Virus record (IMG/VR): IMGVR_UViG_3300046785_000125
Coordinates: 1 to 42,944 of that record
DNA length: 42,944 nt
Reading direction: 5' to 3' (one strand)
Source of the DNA: a virus
Notes under the pieces: generated by a model
What the model was told of the DNA's origin: nothing
Database searches by the model: none
What the model saw: only the letters and a program-made list of their open reading frames with translations
Program-made: the position numbers and the translations under genes
Shown here: piece by piece, positions 10,436 through 21,114 of the stretch
Layout: the number at the start of each line of letters is the position of its first letter
Numbering within the stretch: position 1 is the first letter of the stretch

Positions 10436-13400
10436 TTAAAATTTTACTTTTTTTAACCTACTTCTTCTAAACTTATTTGTTTTTTTCTTTTTGGTTTGTT
10501 TTTCTTCTTTCATTCCTAACTGCCAATCTTGCCAACCAAGTAGCAATGAAACTCTTTCCCAATATTCAACATCTTCTTGTAAAGCAGCGTTTATGTTTTC
10601 TACTTTAGTTAAAAGTCTATCTACAGGTATGTTAGTAACACCTTCTGTTATTCTTAATGTACCTGAAATAGCTGGATTATCTATAGAAAATCCTTTTTCT
10701 ATTATATCAGACATACTAGTAAAACTAAATTCTTTTAATCCACCAGCTATTTTTCTGTATTTAGAAGAAAGAGGAGGTGATATATTTAGTAAAGCTGTTG
10801 CTGCTTTTTCATATTCAGGCCTGTCTTTTTTACCTTCAGTATATATTTTAATAGCAGCATCTTTAACTCCACTAGTTATAGCGCCGTACATGCCCATACC
10901 TCTTAATAAAGAGTTAGCCATACCGTTTGCCATGTTTATAGTTTTATCGTCTGTAACACCTTCATCGTCTCCAAACGCAACAGCAAAAAGAGCTTGTTGA
11001 AGAGCATTAAATAATACATTTTGAGCAAATGTATAATATACTATTTTAGATATATTAGACTTAGCATCTCCTCTACCGTTTTTAAGATCAAGAGCGGCTT
11101 TTTTTATTATTCTAGCATACTGACTAGGTGTGTTGGCAAAAGCTAGCACTAATCTACCTAAAGGTCCAGCTTGCTGTTGACTAATCATATCAGGTCTTGA
11201 TGACTGTTGAGAAACTTCAGCTAACTCTCTAAAATCTTTAAAAGCTTTATTTGCTGCTTCTTGTTTTGTGTATAGCAAATTACCATCAACGTCTTTTTGT
11301 TTTTCGTAGGTTTTAATTCTATTTCTATAAAAAGTAGCACCTCCAGAAGCAATAGCAAAACTATCAGCAAGTTGAGTTGGTGTAAAACCAAATTTTAACA
11401 AACCATTTATAACACCTCTTACTCCTCCTTTTTTAGCCATATTAGCTATATCAGCTTCATTTACATTTATTTTTAAACCGCTTCTTCTATCTACTAGAAA
11501 ATCAGAGTTAAATAAATCTTTAAAGTCTTTCCAGTATTGAGGTTGATTAGCAAATGCTTTACCTGCTTTAAATATATTGTTGTCAGATAAGTTTATAAAG
11601 TTTGTAGCAGAAAGTGTCTGTAAAACTGCCGATCTAGTATTAAAAAACATCACAGCACCTACAGAACCGTTTAACCAGTCTGACAATCTAGCGGTGTAAG
11701 TATCAGTTCCATAAGTTCTGTTTCTACCTGTTTTCATTCTTAAAAGCATGTTTTCAAGAGCTTTTCTATACTTAATACCATAAGCAGCTTGAAGCTTGTT
11801 TAAATTTTGTTCTGAAAAAAGTATATCAACATTGTCTTGCCACTTTTGCAAATACTTAGATCTTTTTGTTGTGTTTAAGCCTTCTAGTAAATCTGTAGTT
11901 ATACTTCCTGTTAACCAGTTGTTAGACGGTTTAGCATATGCATCGCCTTTATTTATTTGTATTAATTTATTAGCAAACTTTATTAAATCAGGGTTTTTAT
12001 TAAATTCTTGTAAAATTGTTTTAAAATCACCTTTTGAAAGACCTGGAATATCCATTCCTTGCTTAGCCCATATATATGTTCTTATGCCTTGCTCTTTTGT
12101 GAAACCGGTAGTACCTAATTCTTTTCTTAAATTTTTAGGAACAATACCAAGCTGTTCTTTTATTATTTTATAATCTTTAGTTATTGATCTTCTTTCTTTA
12201 GTTATAGCATCAACACCTCTTGCGTAAGGATCAATTAAATTTCTTTTATAAAAAGCTAAATCTTTATCACCTTGTTTTCCTTTTCCTACCGTTTTATATA
12301 ATAAGCCTAAAAAATCTTCTGCTCCTGGAGCTATAAAAAAGTCAAACCTTCCTTTTCCTTTACCCATTAATTGAGCTCTAACTGGTGAAATTTCAGAACT
12401 AGAACTAATGCCTGTTTTTCTTTCTATTATGTCATTAAATTCCTTGTTTATATCTATAGAAGCTTTTGTTCCATCTTTAAAAAATGTTAAATTATGATTA
12501 ACCATTTCTTGTTGAACAGCTTTTTTCTGCTCAAAATTCAATTTAAAGTAATCACTAACTTCAAAAAGTGCTGAAGAAACAACATCCCGCATTTCAAATA
12601 CGTCAAATTTTTTCATGTCTTCAAGATTTCTTTCTAAATCTATAGAAAATTTAGCATCTCTTACAACTTTATCTACAGCTAAAGCATCATCTAAAACCCA
12701 TGTGTTAGGATTTTCTACGTAGTTTTTAAAATCTACTAATTTGTTTTTATTATTTACTATAAATACTTGTCCGCTTTTAATCTTACTTCTAACACCTGGG
12801 GCTAATAATCTCAGTATACCGACACTAGTACTTGAAGCCATAGAGCTGTCTAAAATTTTTCTAAAAGACTTTGGTACTAACATCGCTCTGCTTTCTATAA
12901 AAGTATTTTTGTTTAAAAGTATATTGTCTAATGCTTTTATACCTGTCGACTGCGTAGCTGTGTCTAAGTGCTCTAAATAATATTCTCCTCTTCCTGTAAC
13001 TCCACCAACAATTTTAGCTAAAGCTTTTTCTCCATAATGTATTGAAGATGTTGATCCAGCTAACTGAACCATATATCTTAAAGCCGCTAATCTTTCTTTG
13101 CTACCTTTAGGTGTAGAATTAACAAAATCAATTTTTAAACTATTTATTAAATTTAAAGCTATAGATCTAGCATCATTATTTTTTTTATCAGTAGCAGCTT
13201 TTTTAATTATTTCTTTTTGTTTTAAAGAAGATACACCTTTTAAATTTTTTCTTAAAGTTTTATTTCTAGAACTACTTATTGCTTGCAGTTTTTTATCACC
13301 AATTTTTTCTTTTAATTGTTTTATTAAATCTTTAGTGTTTTTAGAATACAAGCTTGTGTCAACTTGTGAGTCTAGATAAATGTTTAATAAATCTGTATGT

Positions 13401-16400
13401 ATTTTATTTTTATATATTTCATCTCTAGTAGCTTCTTCACCATATATTTCACTGCCTTTTTTCTTAAAAACTTTTTTACTTGCGTTAGGTTCACCTATGT
13501 AATTGTAATTTGTTAAATCATTTCTATAATGTCTTCCTAATATAAAACCTATTAAAGTTCTATTTTCTGAAAGTTTTTTAGGTAAAAAACTAGCAAATTC
13601 AGCTTGTGTAGTTCTAAAATCTTCAATAGCCTCTAGAGAAAATTTTTGCGTACCCTGTGATTTATCTGATAATTTTACAAATAAATCTTTTGATTTTACA
13701 TTTAAGCCGTGTTCTTGTGCTATAACGCTTGAAACTACACTATCGTCAAGCATTATTTCAATACCTTTTTTTATAGTATTTTCATCTTTAGCAACCTTCA
13801 TTAACTCTTTGACTGTTCCAGACTGAATACCGTTGTATTCTAAAAAGTATTTTAATTTATCTGTGTCAAAAGAAGCTAATCTAGAGCTTGTTGCTGATTT
13901 AATATCAACTAGTATTTGCTCTATATTTGCGTCTACTTTAGGTTTTAATGACTCTATTTTATTTCTAGCAAGCTTATTAGCTAAGTTTTGCGCTACTATT
14001 TTTATATTTGCTTTTATAAACTCTACAGAAGAAGTTTCCATGTATTTTCTAACTGCAGATATAGTTTCTGGAGATATTCTACCTCTAAACTGAGGCTTAA
14101 GTCTAACAACTCCAGTTTGTGATGTTAATCCTTTACTTCTTCCAGAAGGACTAGATATGGCAAAATCTTTTTCAATAAAAGGTTTACCCATTTCGTTGCC
14201 TGACCCTTCTATAACTTTTGTGCTTTTTGCTTTTGGATCTATAAAAGGTTCGTAAAAATACTCTTTAAACAACTTAGCTTTTAACACAGACCTGCCTCTA
14301 ACGTCTTTAGAAACTAGCATTTGAAACTCTGTTGGAACTTCACCAGCTTCAGATCTAGACACATTAAATTCGGGAAGTGTTTTTATGTGTCTTTCTAAAT
14401 TATTACCTTTATCAAAATAGTTTAGAGCTTTTGTCTTATCTGAATAAAATTTAACACCACCTGTTTCACCTGGTTTTAGTTTTTTACCAGTACTTGGGTT
14501 TCCTATAAAATCAACTTCACTAAAGTTTTTATTTGTTCCAACAATTTTAGCAGCTGGAATTCCAGTTATAATCTGCCCAACATCACCAACAAAGTTTTTT
14601 TCTATGTACTCTGGAGTTACGTTTTGCACAATATCTTTGTCTATTTTTAAAACTCTGTCTAGTCTTTCTAGTTCTATAGTTTTTAGATCTCTTGTAGGAT
14701 CTATATCCTTTTGAATTCTTTCTTCAAAACCTTCTGATTCTGTTATAAGTTTATCAGCAGAATCTGTTCCAGCTATTTCTTTAACTGATCCAGTTTCTCC
14801 AGCTTCAACATCTAGGCTTTTAGCTTTAGTTACTTTTAATTTTTCATAAACATCTTGAGCTTTAAATCTAGCAGAACTAAAAGCATATGTTGAAAACTTT
14901 TGAGTAGCGTTGCCGTCTTTATCTTTTTTGGGGTCGTAAAGCTCTATTATTCTGGGCAAGTAAGTAGAAATAAGCTCTTGCTTAGCTTCTTCTCTATCTA
15001 TACCACCTTTTCTAGTATCAAACTTTATAGCTGTTAAAGCTAGCTCTCCAAAAGAATTTTGAAGCTCTTCTGTAGCTTTTTGTTTTTCAGCCGCAGTAGA
15101 TTGTTCATTCTTTATAACATCAACAAGATCTTCGTTGGTTCTACCTGATTCAAGAACTTTTGTAGTTTTTTGTTTTTCATCTTTTGGTTTTGTAGTTGTA
15201 ACGCTAGTTCTTTTAGATTTATCTATTATATTTCTTTTTTGTTGTTCGTAATCGTCAAAATCTATTATACCATCTAAATATTTATCTTCAAGCTCTTCTA
15301 GCTTTGTCTCTATATCTAAACTTGATTTTTTACCTGAAAGAAGTTCGTTTATTTCAGCAACATTACTTTCAAACTCTAAAGATTCTTTATTAGTAAGCTC
15401 GCCTTTGTCACTTAATTCATTTTGTCTAGCTTCTAGCTGACCAAGTCTATTAACAGTGCTTTGGCCTTTTATATCACCAACCCTAGCTTTTTCTGATACA
15501 CTAAATATTTGTTCGTAACCGTTAGGTCCTTTTATCATTAAACCACCTAAAGAAGCCCATGTTCTTTGAATATTAGAACCTTTAGCTAAATTAGCTATTA
15601 TATTTAACAGTTGCTCTGGCGTGTCTACCTGTAGTTTTAAATCTGAATTTTTATTAAATAAACTGTTTAATTTGTTTTTTATATTACCATAAACATTATT
15701 TCTTATAAGACCATCACCTCCTTTTCCAAGAAGTTCTACTAACTGCATTAAGTACTCTTCTTCGAAAGTTTCACTACTTTGTCTGTTTTTATATTTTTCT
15801 TGTATTTCTCTAAAAATATCTCTACCAATATTCTTTTTAACAAGAGGCTCTATAAATTTTCTTATTTTTTGTAGACTTTCTTTAGAATTTAATCCGTATA
15901 TTTCAGCAAAGACATGCCCTATTTCATGAGGTATAATTCCACTTTGGTATTTTCTTGCATCTACTACTATATCATATTTAGTACCGCCTTTTCCGTCTGA
16001 CGTAGGTATATATTCAGCGTTTTTGCCGTTTAAACCTCTGCCGTCCATTTGTATTTTAAGACTTATATTTAAGTTCTTTCCGGTTTCTTTTTTATATTTT
16101 TCTACTATGTTATTGTAATCTGTTTGAGCTTGTTTAGCTAGCAACTCTGGTGTTACTTCTATAGCTGCAATTTCAGCTGCAACTATATAGTCATTCGCCA
16201 TGTTCCAAGCTGCTTTATAAGCCTCTAAGTCTTTAGCTATTTTTACATCTTTTGGATTTGCTCCGTTTTCTTTTATGATAGCTTCTGCATTTTTTCTAGC
16301 TTCAGCTCTCATCGACTTAGCATTATTAAGAGTTTGAGTAATATTTTTAAGTTTAGCGTGCGGATAACCTAAAGCTAAACCCGTTATAAAATGACCTAAC

Positions 16401-19054
16401 AATCTTCTAGAAACACTGTTTTCACCAAACATAGGTAGTTGCGAAAAATTTTCTTCAAAATAAGTTTTAAAATCTTCGCCTCCTGTAAAATCTTCTGCTA
16501 CAGCTTCTAAAGCACCTGCCATTTCAGAAGCTGGTACTAAAGATAAACCAGACTTAAAAGGCTTAAAAACCAACTCATTTAACCTATGATAAGCAGTTCC
16601 TTTAAAAAAGCTACCACCTAATATTTTTTTAAAAGCTACGTTTGTTATTCTACTAGCTGGTATAAAAGCCATACCGGTTTCAAAACCTCCATCACCAAAA
16701 ATAGCTTCCATTTTAATACCTTCTATAACAGAAGAAATACCAAGCTCATATCCCCTGTCTAAAACATTTCCGCCTTTTTTAATAATAGAACCTGATTTAT
16801 TTAACTTTGACTGAGATTTAACAAAGTTTTGAACTGTTTTACTACCTATGGCGGCTTGTCTTCCACTAGCCATTCTATAACCTGCAGAAGCGGCTTTAGC
16901 TTGAACTTCAGCGTATGATATAGGTTTTTGTATCATTTTTCCAAGCTTAGGACTATATACGTTTTTAAAGTATTTTCCATTTTTTAAAACCAATCCTAGT
17001 CTAGTTAAACCAGTAATATTTGATAATCCTCCTGTAACAACATTAGCAATTCCAAATTCAATAGCTAATCTAGGGGCCGCTGACAAAGTCTCTCCTACAA
17101 ACTCTTTACTTGTTTGTTTGAAGTTTTGTATTTGACTTTCGGTAAAATTTATATTAGCTTCTTGACCTATTTCTTCTATAGCAGTCAAAACCTCAGAAGA
17201 GGTTGGATCCCAATTAGATTCTATTTTTTCTTTTGATGTAAAAGAAGCAGCAACTCCTCTACCAAAAGTTGTAAAAAACCCAGTTCTTTGTATGTCTTTT
17301 GGATCTATATTTGCTAAGTAAACAAAATCAAAAGCTTGTTTTTCAGATTTTAAATTTAAATATCTTTGAGTTAACTCTTTTATATTTTTTTCATCAAAAA
17401 TTTCATAAACTGTGTCTTTATCACTTTCTTTTATGTCTGTAGGGACTGCTTTCAAACCATCTCCAAAGTCTTTCATCATAAAGCCTTTGCTAGATATATA
17501 AATATCTACTAAATCTCTAATAGTTAAGTTTTTAAACTCATTAGCGTTCATGTCATATTTACGCTTTAAAGCATTTAACCAACCTTCTGCCAATATAGGA
17601 TTATCTCTTGTATCTGAAACGTTTACTTTTTTATTTAATATCTTATTTAAATTATCTGTTTCTTTTCTATGTAACCCATATGCAACTTCTAGAGAACCAA
17701 AATCAGTTTCTTTCATTGTTAAAAGTTGATCTATAACAGATTTTACGTTGTTAGTTATGTTTATTGTATTATCAGAATCTACAGATCCTTTTTCTTTACT
17801 AACATACTTAGTGTCTATGTTAAGAAAAAATCCAGCGTCTTTTCCAAGAAATTCATTTATTAAAGAGTTAGATACTTTTTTTAAATTTTTAAGTTTTAAT
17901 TCAAGACTTTGTCTATTATTATCAGTATATGGAGTGTTTTTAAGTTGATTAGAAATTTGTATTATATTATCATTTAATTCACCTAACTGTTTTAAATCCT
18001 TATCTAAAAGATTTATACCGTTTTTTCTAGCTCTTTCAAAATACTCTTCAACACTAATATCTTTGTTCTCTATATAGTTAGAAAAATTTTCTAATTCAAC
18101 TTGTTGATTTTCTTCTTGTTGTTGAAAAAGAAACTGGTCAACAGCATTATTCATTAATATATCTTGTTGGTAATCTGTAATACCTGTAACTTCACTTGCT
18201 TTAGTTCCTCTAAAACCATATTGATTATCTAAAAAAGTTATTTCAAAAAGAGGATCTTCGCCTAAATTTTTATTATATTCATTAAAACTATTTAATGCAA
18301 CTTGTTTTATTTCTTTTATCGTTTCAAGTCTTGTTTCTTCGTTTTCTAGACCATCTCTGTAGCTGTTAGGGCCTTGGTTTATTAAAGACTTAACTCTACT
18401 TAAAAATTGGTTTCTATATTTTTTATTATCTTTGAAAGCTTGTAAATCTTCATCTTTAGAGTTTTCTTTTAACCAATTGTTTAGATTTTCAAACTTAGCA
18501 AAACCTGTAGTAACATTAAAAGAAGTACTTTGCCCGTTAGGAGATTTTATAAATATAGTTGATGGAGTGTTTCTTACTTCAAAGCCATCTTTTTCTAAAA
18601 TGTTTTTATAATAATCAACTATGCTGTTAGCACTATTAGAACTCGTAAGATCTATGTCATTTGAAAGATCTATAATAGTGTCTTTATAAACTAGGCTTTG
18701 TTTAGGTATTTTTACTTTTTCTTTTTTAACGTATACAGGCCTAGAACTTTGAACTTTATTACCAGATATATCTGTGTCTAGTTGATCTTGAATAGCTTGA
18801 AATCCAAAAGGATCATCGCCTGTGAAGGCCGAAGAACCATCTACCGAACCTGAAACCGTACTCGGTGCTATATTTTTCTGCGACGACGCAACTGCACCCG
18901 GTACATCGTCCTTGCTCTTTACTTCTCTAGGTGTAACAGCTTCTAACCCGTTTTTAGAAATAATTTCATTTATTGTTGTTCCTCTTTTTTTAGCTAACTT
19001 AATTAGCTGATCTTCTGAAATTACTTTACCATTTTTTAGTTTATAATCTGGCAT
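10436..19054 (-). CDS. Giant internal virion (ejection) protein with zinc-peptidase and sigma-70-like segments
   Basis: A 2872-aa protein in the place of T7 gp16, last of the three ejection-type genes. The N-terminal about 40 residues form a small charged module (YKLKNGKVISEDQLIKLAKK), followed by a Ser/Gly/Ala linker. A metallopeptidase motif HEIGH (1043-1047) has acidic candidates for a third zinc ligand at 1098-1100. Residues about 1328-1450 resemble sigma-70 region 2 (YDP at 1373, FSTYAF at 1387, SLD at 1413). The middle is rich in Lys and helical. The C-terminal third has hydrophobic, possibly membrane-active segments (GSVGAVMFFNT; FAQNVLFNALQQALFAVAFG near 2670). T7-type ejection proteins form a conduit across the envelope during DNA entry; the same role is inferred here. 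The lytic transglycosylase domain of T7 gp16 is not seen. Confidence 0.85.
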   Translation of the reverse strand: MPDYKLKNGKVISEDQLIKLAKKRGTTINEIISKNGLEAVTPREVKSKDDVPGAVASSQKNIAPSTVSGSVDGSSAFTGDDPFGFQAIQDQLDTDISGNKVQSSRPVYVKKEKVKIPKQSLVYKDTIIDLSNDIDLTSSNSANSIVDYYKNILEKDGFEVRNTPSTIFIKSPNGQSTSFNVTTGFAKFENLNNWLKENSKDEDLQAFKDNKKYRNQFLSRVKSLINQGPNSYRDGLENEETRLETIKEIKQVALNSFNEYNKNLGEDPLFEITFLDNQYGFRGTKASEVTGITDYQQDILMNNAVDQFLFQQQEENQQVELENFSNYIENKDISVEEYFERARKNGINLLDKDLKQLGELNDNIIQISNQLKNTPYTDNNRQSLELKLKNLKKVSNSLINEFLGKDAGFFLNIDTKYVSKEKGSVDSDNTINITNNVKSVIDQLLTMKETDFGSLEVAYGLHRKETDNLNKILNKKVNVSDTRDNPILAEGWLNALKRKYDMNANEFKNLTIRDLVDIYISSKGFMMKDFGDGLKAVPTDIKESDKDTVYEIFDEKNIKELTQRYLNLKSEKQAFDFVYLANIDPKDIQRTGFFTTFGRGVAASFTSKEKIESNWDPTSSEVLTAIEEIGQEANINFTESQIQNFKQTSKEFVGETLSAAPRLAIEFGIANVVTGGLSNITGLTRLGLVLKNGKYFKNVYSPKLGKMIQKPISYAEVQAKAASAGYRMASGRQAAIGSKTVQNFVKSQSKLNKSGSIIKKGGNVLDRGYELGISSVIEGIKMEAIFGDGGFETGMAFIPASRITNVAFKKILGGSFFKGTAYHRLNELVFKPFKSGLSLVPASEMAGALEAVAEDFTGGEDFKTYFEENFSQLPMFGENSVSRRLLGHFITGLALGYPHAKLKNITQTLNNAKSMRAEARKNAEAIIKENGANPKDVKIAKDLEAYKAAWNMANDYIVAAEIAAIEVTPELLAKQAQTDYNNIVEKYKKETGKNLNISLKIQMDGRGLNGKNAEYIPTSDGKGGTKYDIVVDARKYQSGIIPHEIGHVFAEIYGLNSKESLQKIRKFIEPLVKKNIGRDIFREIQEKYKNRQSSETFEEEYLMQLVELLGKGGDGLIRNNVYGNIKNKLNSLFNKNSDLKLQVDTPEQLLNIIANLAKGSNIQRTWASLGGLMIKGPNGYEQIFSVSEKARVGDIKGQSTVNRLGQLEARQNELSDKGELTNKESLEFESNVAEINELLSGKKSSLDIETKLEELEDKYLDGIIDFDDYEQQKRNIIDKSKRTSVTTTKPKDEKQKTTKVLESGRTNEDLVDVIKNEQSTAAEKQKATEELQNSFGELALTAIKFDTRKGGIDREEAKQELISTYLPRIIELYDPKKDKDGNATQKFSTYAFSSARFKAQDVYEKLKVTKAKSLDVEAGETGSVKEIAGTDSADKLITESEGFEERIQKDIDPTRDLKTIELERLDRVLKIDKDIVQNVTPEYIEKNFVGDVGQIITGIPAAKIVGTNKNFSEVDFIGNPSTGKKLKPGETGGVKFYSDKTKALNYFDKGNNLERHIKTLPEFNVSRSEAGEVPTEFQMLVSKDVRGRSVLKAKLFKEYFYEPFIDPKAKSTKVIEGSGNEMGKPFIEKDFAISSPSGRSKGLTSQTGVVRLKPQFRGRISPETISAVRKYMETSSVEFIKANIKIVAQNLANKLARNKIESLKPKVDANIEQILVDIKSATSSRLASFDTDKLKYFLEYNGIQSGTVKELMKVAKDENTIKKGIEIMLDDSVVSSVIAQEHGLNVKSKDLFVKLSDKSQGTQKFSLEAIEDFRTTQAEFASFLPKKLSENRTLIGFILGRHYRNDLTNYNYIGEPNASKKVFKKKGSEIYGEEATRDEIYKNKIHTDLLNIYLDSQVDTSLYSKNTKDLIKQLKEKIGDKKLQAISSSRNKTLRKNLKGVSSLKQKEIIKKAATDKKNNDARSIALNLINSLKIDFVNSTPKGSKERLAALRYMVQLAGSTSSIHYGEKALAKIVGGVTGRGEYYLEHLDTATQSTGIKALDNILLNKNTFIESRAMLVPKSFRKILDSSMASSTSVGILRLLAPGVRSKIKSGQVFIVNNKNKLVDFKNYVENPNTWVLDDALAVDKVVRDAKFSIDLERNLEDMKKFDVFEMRDVVSSALFEVSDYFKLNFEQKKAVQQEMVNHNLTFFKDGTKASIDINKEFNDIIERKTGISSSSEISPVRAQLMGKGKGRFDFFIAPGAEDFLGLLYKTVGKGKQGDKDLAFYKRNLIDPYARGVDAITKERRSITKDYKIIKEQLGIVPKNLRKELGTTGFTKEQGIRTYIWAKQGMDIPGLSKGDFKTILQEFNKNPDLIKFANKLIQINKGDAYAKPSNNWLTGSITTDLLEGLNTTKRSKYLQKWQDNVDILFSEQNLNKLQAAYGIKYRKALENMLLRMKTGRNRTYGTDTYTARLSDWLNGSVGAVMFFNTRSAVLQTLSATNFINLSDNNIFKAGKAFANQPQYWKDFKDLFNSDFLVDRRSGLKINVNEADIANMAKKGGVRGVINGLLKFGFTPTQLADSFAIASGGATFYRNRIKTYEKQKDVDGNLLYTKQEAANKAFKDFRELAEVSQQSSRPDMISQQQAGPLGRLVLAFANTPSQYARIIKKAALDLKNGRGDAKSNISKIVYYTFAQNVLFNALQQALFAVAFGDDEGVTDDKTINMANGMANSLLRGMGMYGAITSGVKDAAIKIYTEGKKDRPEYEKAATALLNISPPLSSKYRKIAGGLKEFSFTSMSDIIEKGFSIDNPAISGTLRITEGVTNIPVDRLLTKVENINAALQEDVEYWERVSLLLGWQDWQLGMKEEKQTKKKKTNKFRRSRLKKVKF
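14705..15073 (-). other. Sigma-70 region-2-like domain inside the giant ejection protein
   Basis: Residues about 1328-1450 of the 2872-aa protein. Reading N to C: a helix ELALTAIKFDTRKGG, an acidic helix (DREEAKQELISTYLPRIIEL), then YDPKK, a short loop, QKFSTYAFSSARFKAQDVYE, and after a short gap SLDVEAGETGSVKEI. Sigma factors read FDP-x-x-G, FSTYA, a helix, then SLD-x-P-x-G in the same order and at similar spacing. The core-binding and promoter-melting helices would lie here. No clear region 4 helix-turn-helix was recognised. Assignment is by pattern reading only. Confidence 0.6.
15725..16102 (-). other. Zincin (HEIGH) metallopeptidase domain inside the giant ejection protein
   Basis: Residues about 985-1110. 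A strand-rich lead (KYDIVVDARKY) precedes GIIPHEIGHVFAEIYG, which carries the zinc-binding HExxH motif. About 50 residues further on, an acidic helix EEEYLMQL could give the third ligand, as in gluzincin-type peptidases. Metallopeptidase domains of this style are known in large multi-domain 'polyvalent' phage proteins that enter the host with DNA. The target could be a host envelope or defence protein, or the phage's own ejection proteins. Confidence 0.7.
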
Positions 19055-19076: not shown

Positions 19077-20489
19077 TTATTCTAAAGAATCATCTAGTTC
19101 ATCGTCACTTAGATATATGTAGTTTTCTGGACTATCATTATCTGGATTAGGATTAACAGTTACAACTTGAGGTACTAGAGAATTTACATATTCTACTATT
19201 TCGTTTCTAGATTCTGTCTTCTCGCCTACTGTATAACCTTGAGCATTACTCAACCTTACAGCTAAGTTCTTAAGTTGATTTTCATTTTCTATATTAAAGC
19301 TTTCAGTTTCACCATCTCCAAGATCTAATTCAATAAAACTTCCATTAACAACTCTTTGTTGGCCCGGTCCTAAAATTCTATCTATTGTACCATTAGGATC
19401 ATCTATTAAATTGTTAACTAAATTTATTGCGTTGTTTTTAACAGTTTTGTCTTTTTCCTTTGGCTTTTTTCGTTTTGCGTATTTTCTTTTAATTTTTTCT
19501 CTAAGTTCAGTTTTTAACTCTGTCTCAAATAGCTCCGCTTTTAATTTATCTTCATCTTCTTTTGTTTTTATTGCATAGCTATTATTAGCAACATCAACAA
19601 ATCCATTTGTTAATCTACTAATAACTTGCTCTCTTAAATTTGCAGAGTTTTCAATGTCAAAAAGATTTTCAAAACCTAAAGCACCGGCGTTTTTAGCTAA
19701 GTTTTCACCTATTAATATATCTAAAAACAAACTACTATCAACACCAGGTATGGCATCGTCTTTAACTATCATAGCCGCTATTTCAGGAGTTATTACAGCT
19801 TTAAGATCATTATAATATTCTTTTTTTTCTAGCTCAGTTAAAGGTCTTTTAAGCTTTTTAATTTCTTTTATTGTTTGTTTTATTTGATTACCAACAATTA
19901 TAGCTTTTTCTTTTTTTGCTAAAACTGGAGCTTCTGTTAAATCACCCCAAGTAGCGTTTCCAGTTTCATAGTCTATTTTTATGTTTCCAGTATAATAATC
20001 ATTAGCTTGTTTTATTTTGTCGCCGTTAATTAATGAAAATTCATTATTTTTTAAAGAATCAGCGTAATCAAGTTTGTTTGCTTTGTATGTTTTAAAGTTA
20101 TTTGTTAAGTTAATGAATTTATTGTTTATAGCATTTAACTTGCTAGAAAGCTCCATATAAAGTTCTGGGTTTTCTGAAGCAGAAACTTGAGATAATTGCC
20201 CAGCTATTTCTGAATAATCTTTTTTCCATTGCAAACCGACCTTTGCTACCTCCATTTGTTCTAACTGCGTTAACCCCGCTATATCGACATCTTCTAAACC
20301 TTCAAGATACTTAATCATTTTAGTGTCTTCAGCTTGCTTTTTTTCTTTTTCTTCTAGTAACTTAAGCTTAGCCATTTCCATCAAAGGTTCAAAAGTAGAG
20401 TCAAATCCTTGTGAAAACGATCCAAAATAATCTACTACTGGTCCTGCGGCCGTAGCTGCGCCTTGTATTAATGCTGTATTTATTGCCAT
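19077..20489 (-). CDS. Internal virion protein (T7 gp15-position), 470 aa
   Basis: Unrecognised by sequence family, but placed exactly between the Ala/Gln-rich small ejection protein and the giant one, the position of T7 gp15. It opens with a short hydrophobic, Ala/Gly-rich segment (INTALIQGAATAAGPVVDYFG), then becomes long charged helices (LLEEKEKKQAEDTKMIKYLEGL; KTEDEDKLKAELFETELKTEL) with a Lys/Arg-rich patch (KRKYAKRKKPKEKDK) and an acidic C-terminus (SDDELDDSLE). This fits a helical core-forming ejection protein. The gene is separated from the next one by only 22 bases. Confidence 0.65.
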   Translation of the reverse strand: MAINTALIQGAATAAGPVVDYFGSFSQGFDSTFEPLMEMAKLKLLEEKEKKQAEDTKMIKYLEGLEDVDIAGLTQLEQMEVAKVGLQWKKDYSEIAGQLSQVSASENPELYMELSSKLNAINNKFINLTNNFKTYKANKLDYADSLKNNEFSLINGDKIKQANDYYTGNIKIDYETGNATWGDLTEAPVLAKKEKAIIVGNQIKQTIKEIKKLKRPLTELEKKEYYNDLKAVITPEIAAMIVKDDAIPGVDSSLFLDILIGENLAKNAGALGFENLFDIENSANLREQVISRLTNGFVDVANNSYAIKTKEDEDKLKAELFETELKTELREKIKRKYAKRKKPKEKDKTVKNNAINLVNNLIDDPNGTIDRILGPGQQRVVNGSFIELDLGDGETESFNIENENQLKNLAVRLSNAQGYTVGEKTESRNEIVEYVNSLVPQVVTVNPNPDNDSPENYIYLSDDELDDSLE

Positions 20490-20499
20490 AGTTTGTTAT

Positions 20500-21114
20500 T
20501 TAAAAAATTGCATCGCCACTTCCAGCAACTGCACCTCCAATAGCGCCAATTCCTCCTACTATAGATTGAGTGGCTGCTGCTCTAGCTTGTTTAGCGGCTC
20601 CTAACCTTTGCTGTGACATGCCTAACAATGTACCTGTTTTATCATATTCAAGTTGTCTCGCTTGCGTAGCACCTTGCGCTTCTAGCTCTTGAAGTCTTTG
20701 CCCTGCTTGAGCTTGTAAAATTTGGTTTTGCTGTTCTTGAGCGCCTATTGAAGCTGATGCTTGTTGAGCTGCTTGCATTTGTTGACCAGCTAAAGACTGT
20801 GCTAACGCCGCTATACCTGATCCTCCAGCAGCGCCTTGTAAGCCAGTCATAGTGTTAGCTAAAGCTTGTTGTTGGGCTTGCTGAGCAAACTGAGCTTGTT
20901 GCTGGTTAACAGTTAAATCTTCCATTGTATTTTGCATGCCGGAATATAGGTTTGAAGTATCTAAAGCTTCATATTGAGATTTTCTCATATTCATTTCTCT
21001 TTGAGCAGCTTTTTCTTCTCGCTTTCTTTTGCGGCTACCTATGATACCTCCGGCTATACCGGCTACACCTTTTATTGCTCCTCCAACAAGGGCTGCTGTG
21101 CCAATTCCTGCCAT
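20500..21114 (-). CDS. Small ejection protein (T7 gp14-like), Ala/Gln-rich, 204 aa
   Basis: The sequence begins with a Gly/Ala-rich hydrophobic segment (GTAALVGGAIKGVAGIAGGIIG), then a basic stretch (SRKRKREEKAAQREM), a long Gln/Ala-rich helical region (about 70-180), and closes with another Gly/Ala hydrophobic segment (SIVGGIGAIGGAVAGSG). This two-ended hydrophobic, Gln/Ala-rich layout is typical of podovirus ejection proteins such as T7 gp14 and P22 gp7, which insert in the host envelope. It overlaps the upstream cupin-like gene by 43 bases. Family name by layout and gene order, not by close sequence match. Confidence 0.75.
   Translation of the reverse strand: MAGIGTAALVGGAIKGVAGIAGGIIGSRKRKREEKAAQREMNMRKSQYEALDTSNLYSGMQNTMEDLTVNQQQAQFAQQAQQQALANTMTGLQGAAGGSGIAALAQSLAGQQMQAAQQASASIGAQEQQNQILQAQAGQRLQELEAQGATQARQLEYDKTGTLLGMSQQRLGAAKQARAAATQSIVGGIGAIGGAVAGSGDAIF

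Follow-up and report, generated by a model that had tools for sequence, protein, structure and literature searches.

A sigma region 2-like module next to a zincin-type peptidase domain in a giant virion-type phage protein

How short-tailed phages that lack a virion polymerase make their first transcripts, and how proteins resembling T7 gp16 attract polymerase, are poorly understood. The window analysed here, a linear virus record of 42,944 bases (IMGVR_UViG_3300046785_000125) that is probably incomplete, raises this question because a first-pass annotation recognised words typical of sigma factors in its giant virion-type protein. The segment was proposed to enter the cell with the DNA and to steer host RNA polymerase to early phage promoters. 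We ask whether the segment is related to sigma factors and, if so, what it may do.

The phage is marine. The terminase encoded in the window is 63% identical to that of ctfjg026, a complete metagenomic podovirus genome, and 33-46% identical to the terminases of Flavobacterium (elemo), Cellulophaga and Tenacibaculum phages; among these isolates Gundel and Calle have podovirus morphology (PMC8776804). Viral contigs were scanned twice for relatives of the locus, yielding 84 loci. The phages that carry the segment are probably flavobacterial podoviruses, and they form a large, widespread and uncultured group. The sole relative of the C-terminal domain of the giant protein in a bacterial genome (L110) is on a contig binned as Aliivibrio, which is probably a phage contig inside a metagenome-assembled genome and, at 5 kb, is too short to be used for assigning Aliivibrio as a host.

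A minus-strand block (9250-42942) contains terminase, portal, capsid and tail-type genes, and ends with genes for proteins of 204, 470 and 2872 amino acids:

20500..21114, minus strand: gene for a 204-aa Ala/Gln-rich protein whose N-terminus is hydrophobic; by synteny only, it takes the position of a T7 gp14-like ejection protein
19077..20489, minus strand: 470-aa gene adjoining the giant gene; by synteny only, it takes the position of a T7 gp15-like ejection protein
10436..19054, minus strand: giant virion-type protein gene (P0001, 2872 aa), the final large gene of the structural block
10439..12466, minus strand: C-terminal domain by which the giant-protein family is defined, sharing about 50% identity with L003-L005

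The order of these three genes resembles T7 gp14-gp15-gp16 by position, without sequence similarity, and neither of the two smaller genes has a PHROG match. The giant gene sits near tail and head genes, and its syntenic counterparts in elemo and Cellulophaga phages carry a structural annotation. Given this gene order and the analogy with T7 gp16 and N4 gp50, the giant protein is probably ejected into the cell with the DNA. The protein is 84% identical to its close relative L001 over the full length. Searched alone against Pfam, PHROGs and the PDB it returned only chance matches, and its C-terminal domain has no match in the PDB.

Two domains flank the sigma-like segment:

15509..16261, minus strand: zincin-type metallopeptidase domain, aa 932-1182, with invariant H1043, E1044, H1047 and E1100
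14006..14758, minus strand: conserved domain just downstream of the segment, shared by relatives

In an alignment of the zincin domain with 26 relatives the H, E and H of the HExxH motif are invariant, as is another E 53 residues further. An HExxH motif is located 150-284 aa upstream of the sigma-like segment in 46 of the 50 proteins that bear it, against a chance expectation of 0.09 per 300 aa. This pattern groups the giant protein with the polyvalent proteins described by Iyer et al. (PMC5512222), a kind defined in part by great size, many domains and a zincin peptidase, features that the 2872-aa protein displays. The likeness probably extends to delivery with DNA, while the protein differs from catalogued polyvalent proteins in that no Pfam family for their domains (LPDs and others) scored above its cut-off. 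The domain downstream of the segment is marked by the motif GIPAAKI...SKGLTSQT...LKPQFR, common to relatives, and matches neither sigma region 4 nor anything else in the PDB. Region 4 or another DNA-reading domain at this position was rejected: one member matched HTH_Tnp_Tc3_2 (4.7e-4) and the others did not.

The three words noticed in the first pass are present at the positions reported, within 14705-15073 (aa 1328-1450), and were read as sigma region 2 followed by its linker to region 3. The elements of the segment, hereafter the module, which is about 85-100 aa long, are as follows:

14819..15076, minus strand: sigma region 2-like module, core aa 1327-1412, detected by a family HMM built without a motif pattern (E 1.9e-18)
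15029..15094, minus strand: predicted helix aa 1321-1342, in the position of region 2.1 (AlphaFold2 and alignment)
14939..14995, minus strand: predicted helix aa 1354-1372, in the position of region 2.2, which in sigma is the helix facing the RNA polymerase clamp
14924..14938, minus strand: YDPKK, aa 1373-1377, equivalent to the F-D-P turn of sigma
14879..14896, minus strand: FSTYAF, aa 1387-1392
14867..14896, minus strand: predicted helix aa 1387-1396, starting with FSTYAF, in the position of region 2.3; the equivalents of W433/W434 are S/S
14798..14860, minus strand: predicted helix aa 1399-1419 (AlphaFold2), in the position of region 2.4 but not alignable with it
14789..14818, minus strand: SLDVEAGETG, aa 1413-1422, initially taken for the region 3.2 linker, a homology that is unsupported

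The region 2 part of the original reading holds, as described below, while the linker part does not. SLDVEAGETG begins 26 residues past FSTYA, while by our count the SLD-like element of RpoD is about 75 residues past it; no profile alignment extends past region 2.3, where the module family has a motif of its own. The SLD word is therefore considered coincidental and is not counted in what follows.

Because the first seeds for the family were partly chosen with a motif pattern inspired by sigma, the search was repeated without the motif. Iteration from the window segment alone recruited 21 proteins, while iteration from the protein of L025, whose segment the motif pattern had missed, brought in 44, including the window protein (1.9e-18). 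Seed choice can be dismissed as the cause of the sigma signal described below: both motif-free iterations retain it, more weakly in the case of the window's own subfamily. A combined profile detected the module in 59 of the 71 giant proteins of a non-redundant set drawn from viral contigs, so that the segment, whose absence from homologous proteins would have spoken against the first-pass reading, is widespread. On the other hand, it is missing from the giant proteins of the cultured relatives elemo, Cellulophaga phi46:3 and phi38:1 and Gundel, and from that of the metagenomic genome ctfjg026. In a comparison of the window with L001, identity is 96.5% and dN/dS 0.08 for the core (aa 1327-1412), against 88.2% and 0.24 for the linker preceding it; the core is under purifying selection.

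The relation to sigma region 2 emerges at the level of the family. As a single sequence the window segment matches nothing in Pfam or PHROGs and no sigma factor in the PDB, where its best match, a TBX1 fragment at 0.002, is evidently due to chance. By contrast, a profile made from 35 core segments, when run against the complete PDB, returned sigma factors as 55 of the 60 matches listed, with the SigE N-terminal domain at 4.9e-6 and RpoS at 1.6e-4, and a motif-free profile of 42 segments likewise returned sigma factors as 55 of the 60 listed (best 2.4e-5), although these numerous matches represent one family and are not independent. The profile grown only from the window segment placed sigma factors first and second in the PDB (0.005 and 0.008). 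All of these alignments cover sigma regions 2.1-2.3. Sigma families also head the PHROG matches, and alignment with hhalign against four Escherichia coli sigmas gave E-values of 1.1e-6 (A3), 8.4e-6 (A5) and 2e-4 (A4). Control profiles of the domains immediately upstream and downstream, built by the same procedure, found no sigma in the PDB. The expected link to Sigma70_r2 (PF04542) thus exists for the family profiles, whereas individual members fall below the Pfam cut-off: two giant proteins match the family directly (1.3e-4 and 3.9e-4), and, among the 42 member segments, three match it (best 0.0023) and none exceeds the gathering score.

These data argue against the view that the module has no kinship with sigma and is a conserved helical domain of the giant proteins in which an aromatic-D/N-P turn, with an aromatic helix after it, arose by convergence. 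In the whole PDB sigma comes first for three profiles, of which two were seeded without the motif, and the alignment always falls in regions 2.1-2.3; the PHROG results and the silence of the flanking profiles also speak against this view. What convergence would explain is the lack of a sigma match for the window sequence by itself and the low scores in a sliding-block control, where the L025 module block, although first of 83 blocks, reached no more than 9.8 bits, and the window block took fifth place at 4.0. Furthermore, a designed repeat protein scored 2.6e-5 with the motif-free profile, showing that E-values of this order are no proof. The predicted structure also bears on this point. AlphaFold2, run on a trimmed alignment, returned a confidently predicted helical bundle (core pLDDT 80.5, pTM 0.68) with helices at aa 1308-1315 and at the four positions listed above. 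Foldseek placed the WhiG and SigE sigma factors first in the PDB, with weak scores (E 0.22 and 0.51), and among the top eleven BFVD viral models phage sigma factors dominate the named entries (probability 0.89-0.96, E 0.1-0.3). The sigma matches have TM scores of 0.37-0.52 and all have E-values of at least 0.05; an earlier model with long tails also gave sigma-dominated, insignificant matches. The model is therefore consistent with the sequence result, since a bundle is predicted and sigma factors rank at the top, yet its scores are weak enough to be accommodated by convergence and it would not stand alone. On balance convergence appears unlikely, and there is a strong probability that the module is remotely homologous to sigma-70 region 2, specifically regions 2.1-2.3.

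The module retains core residues of the sigma fold. In RpoD numbering D403 is kept as D/E in 35 of 42 module sequences, V416 as I/V/L in 38, F419 as Y/F in all 42 and P421 in 32, the last two forming the turn represented by YDPKK; F427 (as L/F/I), Y430 (as Y/W, 36 of 42) and I435 are also kept. Conversely, the equivalents of W433, W434, Q437 and T440, which serve promoter melting and -10 recognition, are lost, and the region 2.2 contacts are partly kept, with Q406 present as E/Q in 22 of 42 and E407 and N409 mostly absent. The module shares with bacterial sigma-70 region 2 (PF04542; SigE N-terminal domain 8b3z, RpoS, SigA) the profile alignment over 2.1-2.3, D403, the F-D-P turn, the (F/L)-S-T-Y helix and a predicted helical bundle; it differs in having no regions 3 and 4, in the loss of the melting and -10 residues, and in forming part of a much larger protein, of about 2900 aa, where it adjoins a peptidase. 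The label 'sigma region 2-like' is supported for the module. 'Sigma factor' is not supported for the giant protein, which lacks region 4, has not kept the residues for -10 melting and recognition, and matches SLD without homology.

This pattern of retention is compatible with a true descendant of sigma region 2 that has been re-used as a structural or protein-protein module of an ejection protein and makes no contact with RNA polymerase. Such a role would fit the preservation of core fold residues alongside the loss of the melting, -10 and several clamp-facing residues, and also the presence in relatives of separate complete sigma factors that serve transcription. It accounts less readily for a domain that is strongly constrained and retained at a fixed place in 59 of 71 giant proteins, which suggests a specific partner, or for the acidic residue kept at 403. 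We regard re-use of this kind as rather doubtful.

The transcriptional setting of the giant protein bears on what the module may do. As noted in the first pass, no RNA polymerase gene is apparent in the window: T7-type RNA polymerase (PF00940) was found neither there nor in 40 related records, with T7 itself as a control at 1e-110, although PF00940 may miss N4-type enzymes and the window is linear and probably incomplete. A divergent RNA polymerase within the giant protein was likewise discarded, with no PF00940 match and none in PDB sequence searches. Separate sigma factors occur in at least 14 relatives; all but one are about 250-260 aa long, and in most of them both regions were detected. 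The stand-alone sigmas L095-L107, of about 250-263 aa, with regions 2 and 4 and the conserved sequence MKKYNxxNYxRYK...SQVLDYL, come from the records of L023, L026, L030, L031, L032, L035, L045, L052, L067, L073, L076 and L077; the L067 record has two copies, and the L040 and L072 records show region 4 of a similar gene. No stand-alone sigma was found in the window or L001, both of which may be incomplete records. Derivation of the module from these proteins was not favoured, as in hhalign the module is closer to bacterial sigma (1e-6 to 2e-4) than to the stand-alone phage sigmas (0.0013-0.037). Region 4 (PF04545) occurs in no giant protein, only in separate frames of 150-261 aa and one elemo frame, a 200-aa frame of MT497017 (4503-4571) with a weak Sigma70_r4 match (1.9e-5). 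A search for Bacteroidota-type promoters in the window was uninformative (four found, 3.4 expected).

These data weaken the original proposal of a virion-delivered sigma that selects early phage promoters. In its favour are the sigma region 2-like module itself, the lack of a detected phage RNA polymerase in the 41 records and a gene order that makes ejection probable; T4 gp55, a sigma factor built mainly around region 2, provides a precedent. Without region 4 and the melting residues (the W433, W434, Q437 and T440 equivalents), however, promoter choice by the module is unlikely, the SLD word offers no linker, and the separate full sigma factors of the relatives are better candidates for that task. 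The probability that the proposal is correct in full is very low, and the same applies to promoter-specific sigma activity of the module.

We tentatively favour a different role, in which the giant protein is an ejected, polyvalent-type protein with a zincin and a sigma region 2-like module, and the module contacts or tethers host core RNA polymerase or competes with host sigma. From the gene order, the virion would contain the protein and, as with T7 gp16 or N4 gp50, release it through the tail ahead of the DNA or together with it. The module would then touch the sigma2 site of the host core enzyme, the β′ clamp helices, and the contact would tether polymerase to the incoming genome, or compete with or block host sigma, the module not acting as a complete promoter-selecting sigma. 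Contact with RNA polymerase is by itself a reasonable but unsecured possibility, and recruitment or tethering of the host enzyme is plausible. A broader proposal, that this group of probably flavobacterial podoviruses packages and ejects the giant protein so that the module binds host core polymerase as the genome enters and serves as a virion-delivered, sigma-like capture device in place of the N4 virion polymerase, is less likely.

Known systems offer partial parallels. N4 gp50 is also a giant podovirus protein, ejected with two smaller ejection proteins (PMC12633501), whereas no RNA polymerase domain was detected in the giant protein of the window. T7 gp16, described as recruiting host RNA polymerase (PMC12633501, introduction), belongs to the gp14-gp15-gp16 ejectosome, with the same order of small hydrophobic, mid-size and giant genes; it shows no sequence similarity to the window protein, which has a peptidase and a sigma region 2-like module. 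Stand-alone phage sigmas, found in the relatives and in phiEco32-like phages, redirect host polymerase (PMC8948821) and share sigma region 2 with the module, but they are proteins in their own right, about 250 aa long and equipped with region 4. The 2017 survey of polyvalent proteins by Iyer et al. names the jump-starting of transcription as a theme, suggests that processing of the polypeptide is the task of their zincins, and reports that N4-type polymerases are always fused to zincins (PMC5512222); the word 'sigma' is absent from its main text. In agreement with the first-pass annotation, which knew of no described case, a literature search of partial coverage found no virion-borne sigma-like domain, so that novelty is provisional. 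The protein belongs to a known kind but combines its domains in a new way, and the module would add to that kind a domain type missing from the published survey; the first-pass annotation saw a real element, one to which no single-sequence tool would have pointed, and over-read one motif and the function. Carried by most of the related phages, the module may help to seize the host transcription machinery at the moment of infection, and it provides a concrete, expressible domain of about 100 aa for testing RNA polymerase capture at DNA entry.

The surroundings of the module vary among relatives. The segment recurs, for example, in L077 as KIANKYQDVPGFDRQLLVDEILTGRRGVLDMISEYDPATNVPLAAYINKYLRSRAIEAANRIL; the L077 giant protein had no relative in the phage collection. 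The giant proteins of L014, L026, L033 and L076 carry a variant, FDPxxKRxDGxxxGxEGFGEFIFANTNF, in which inserted residues separate the FDP turn from the helix that follows, as in the longer loop of the window protein. In L005 (2735-12091, P0002) the giant protein contains, between the module and the C-terminal domain, an HAD-like stretch, VRVFDFDDTLATTKSD, that the window protein lacks.
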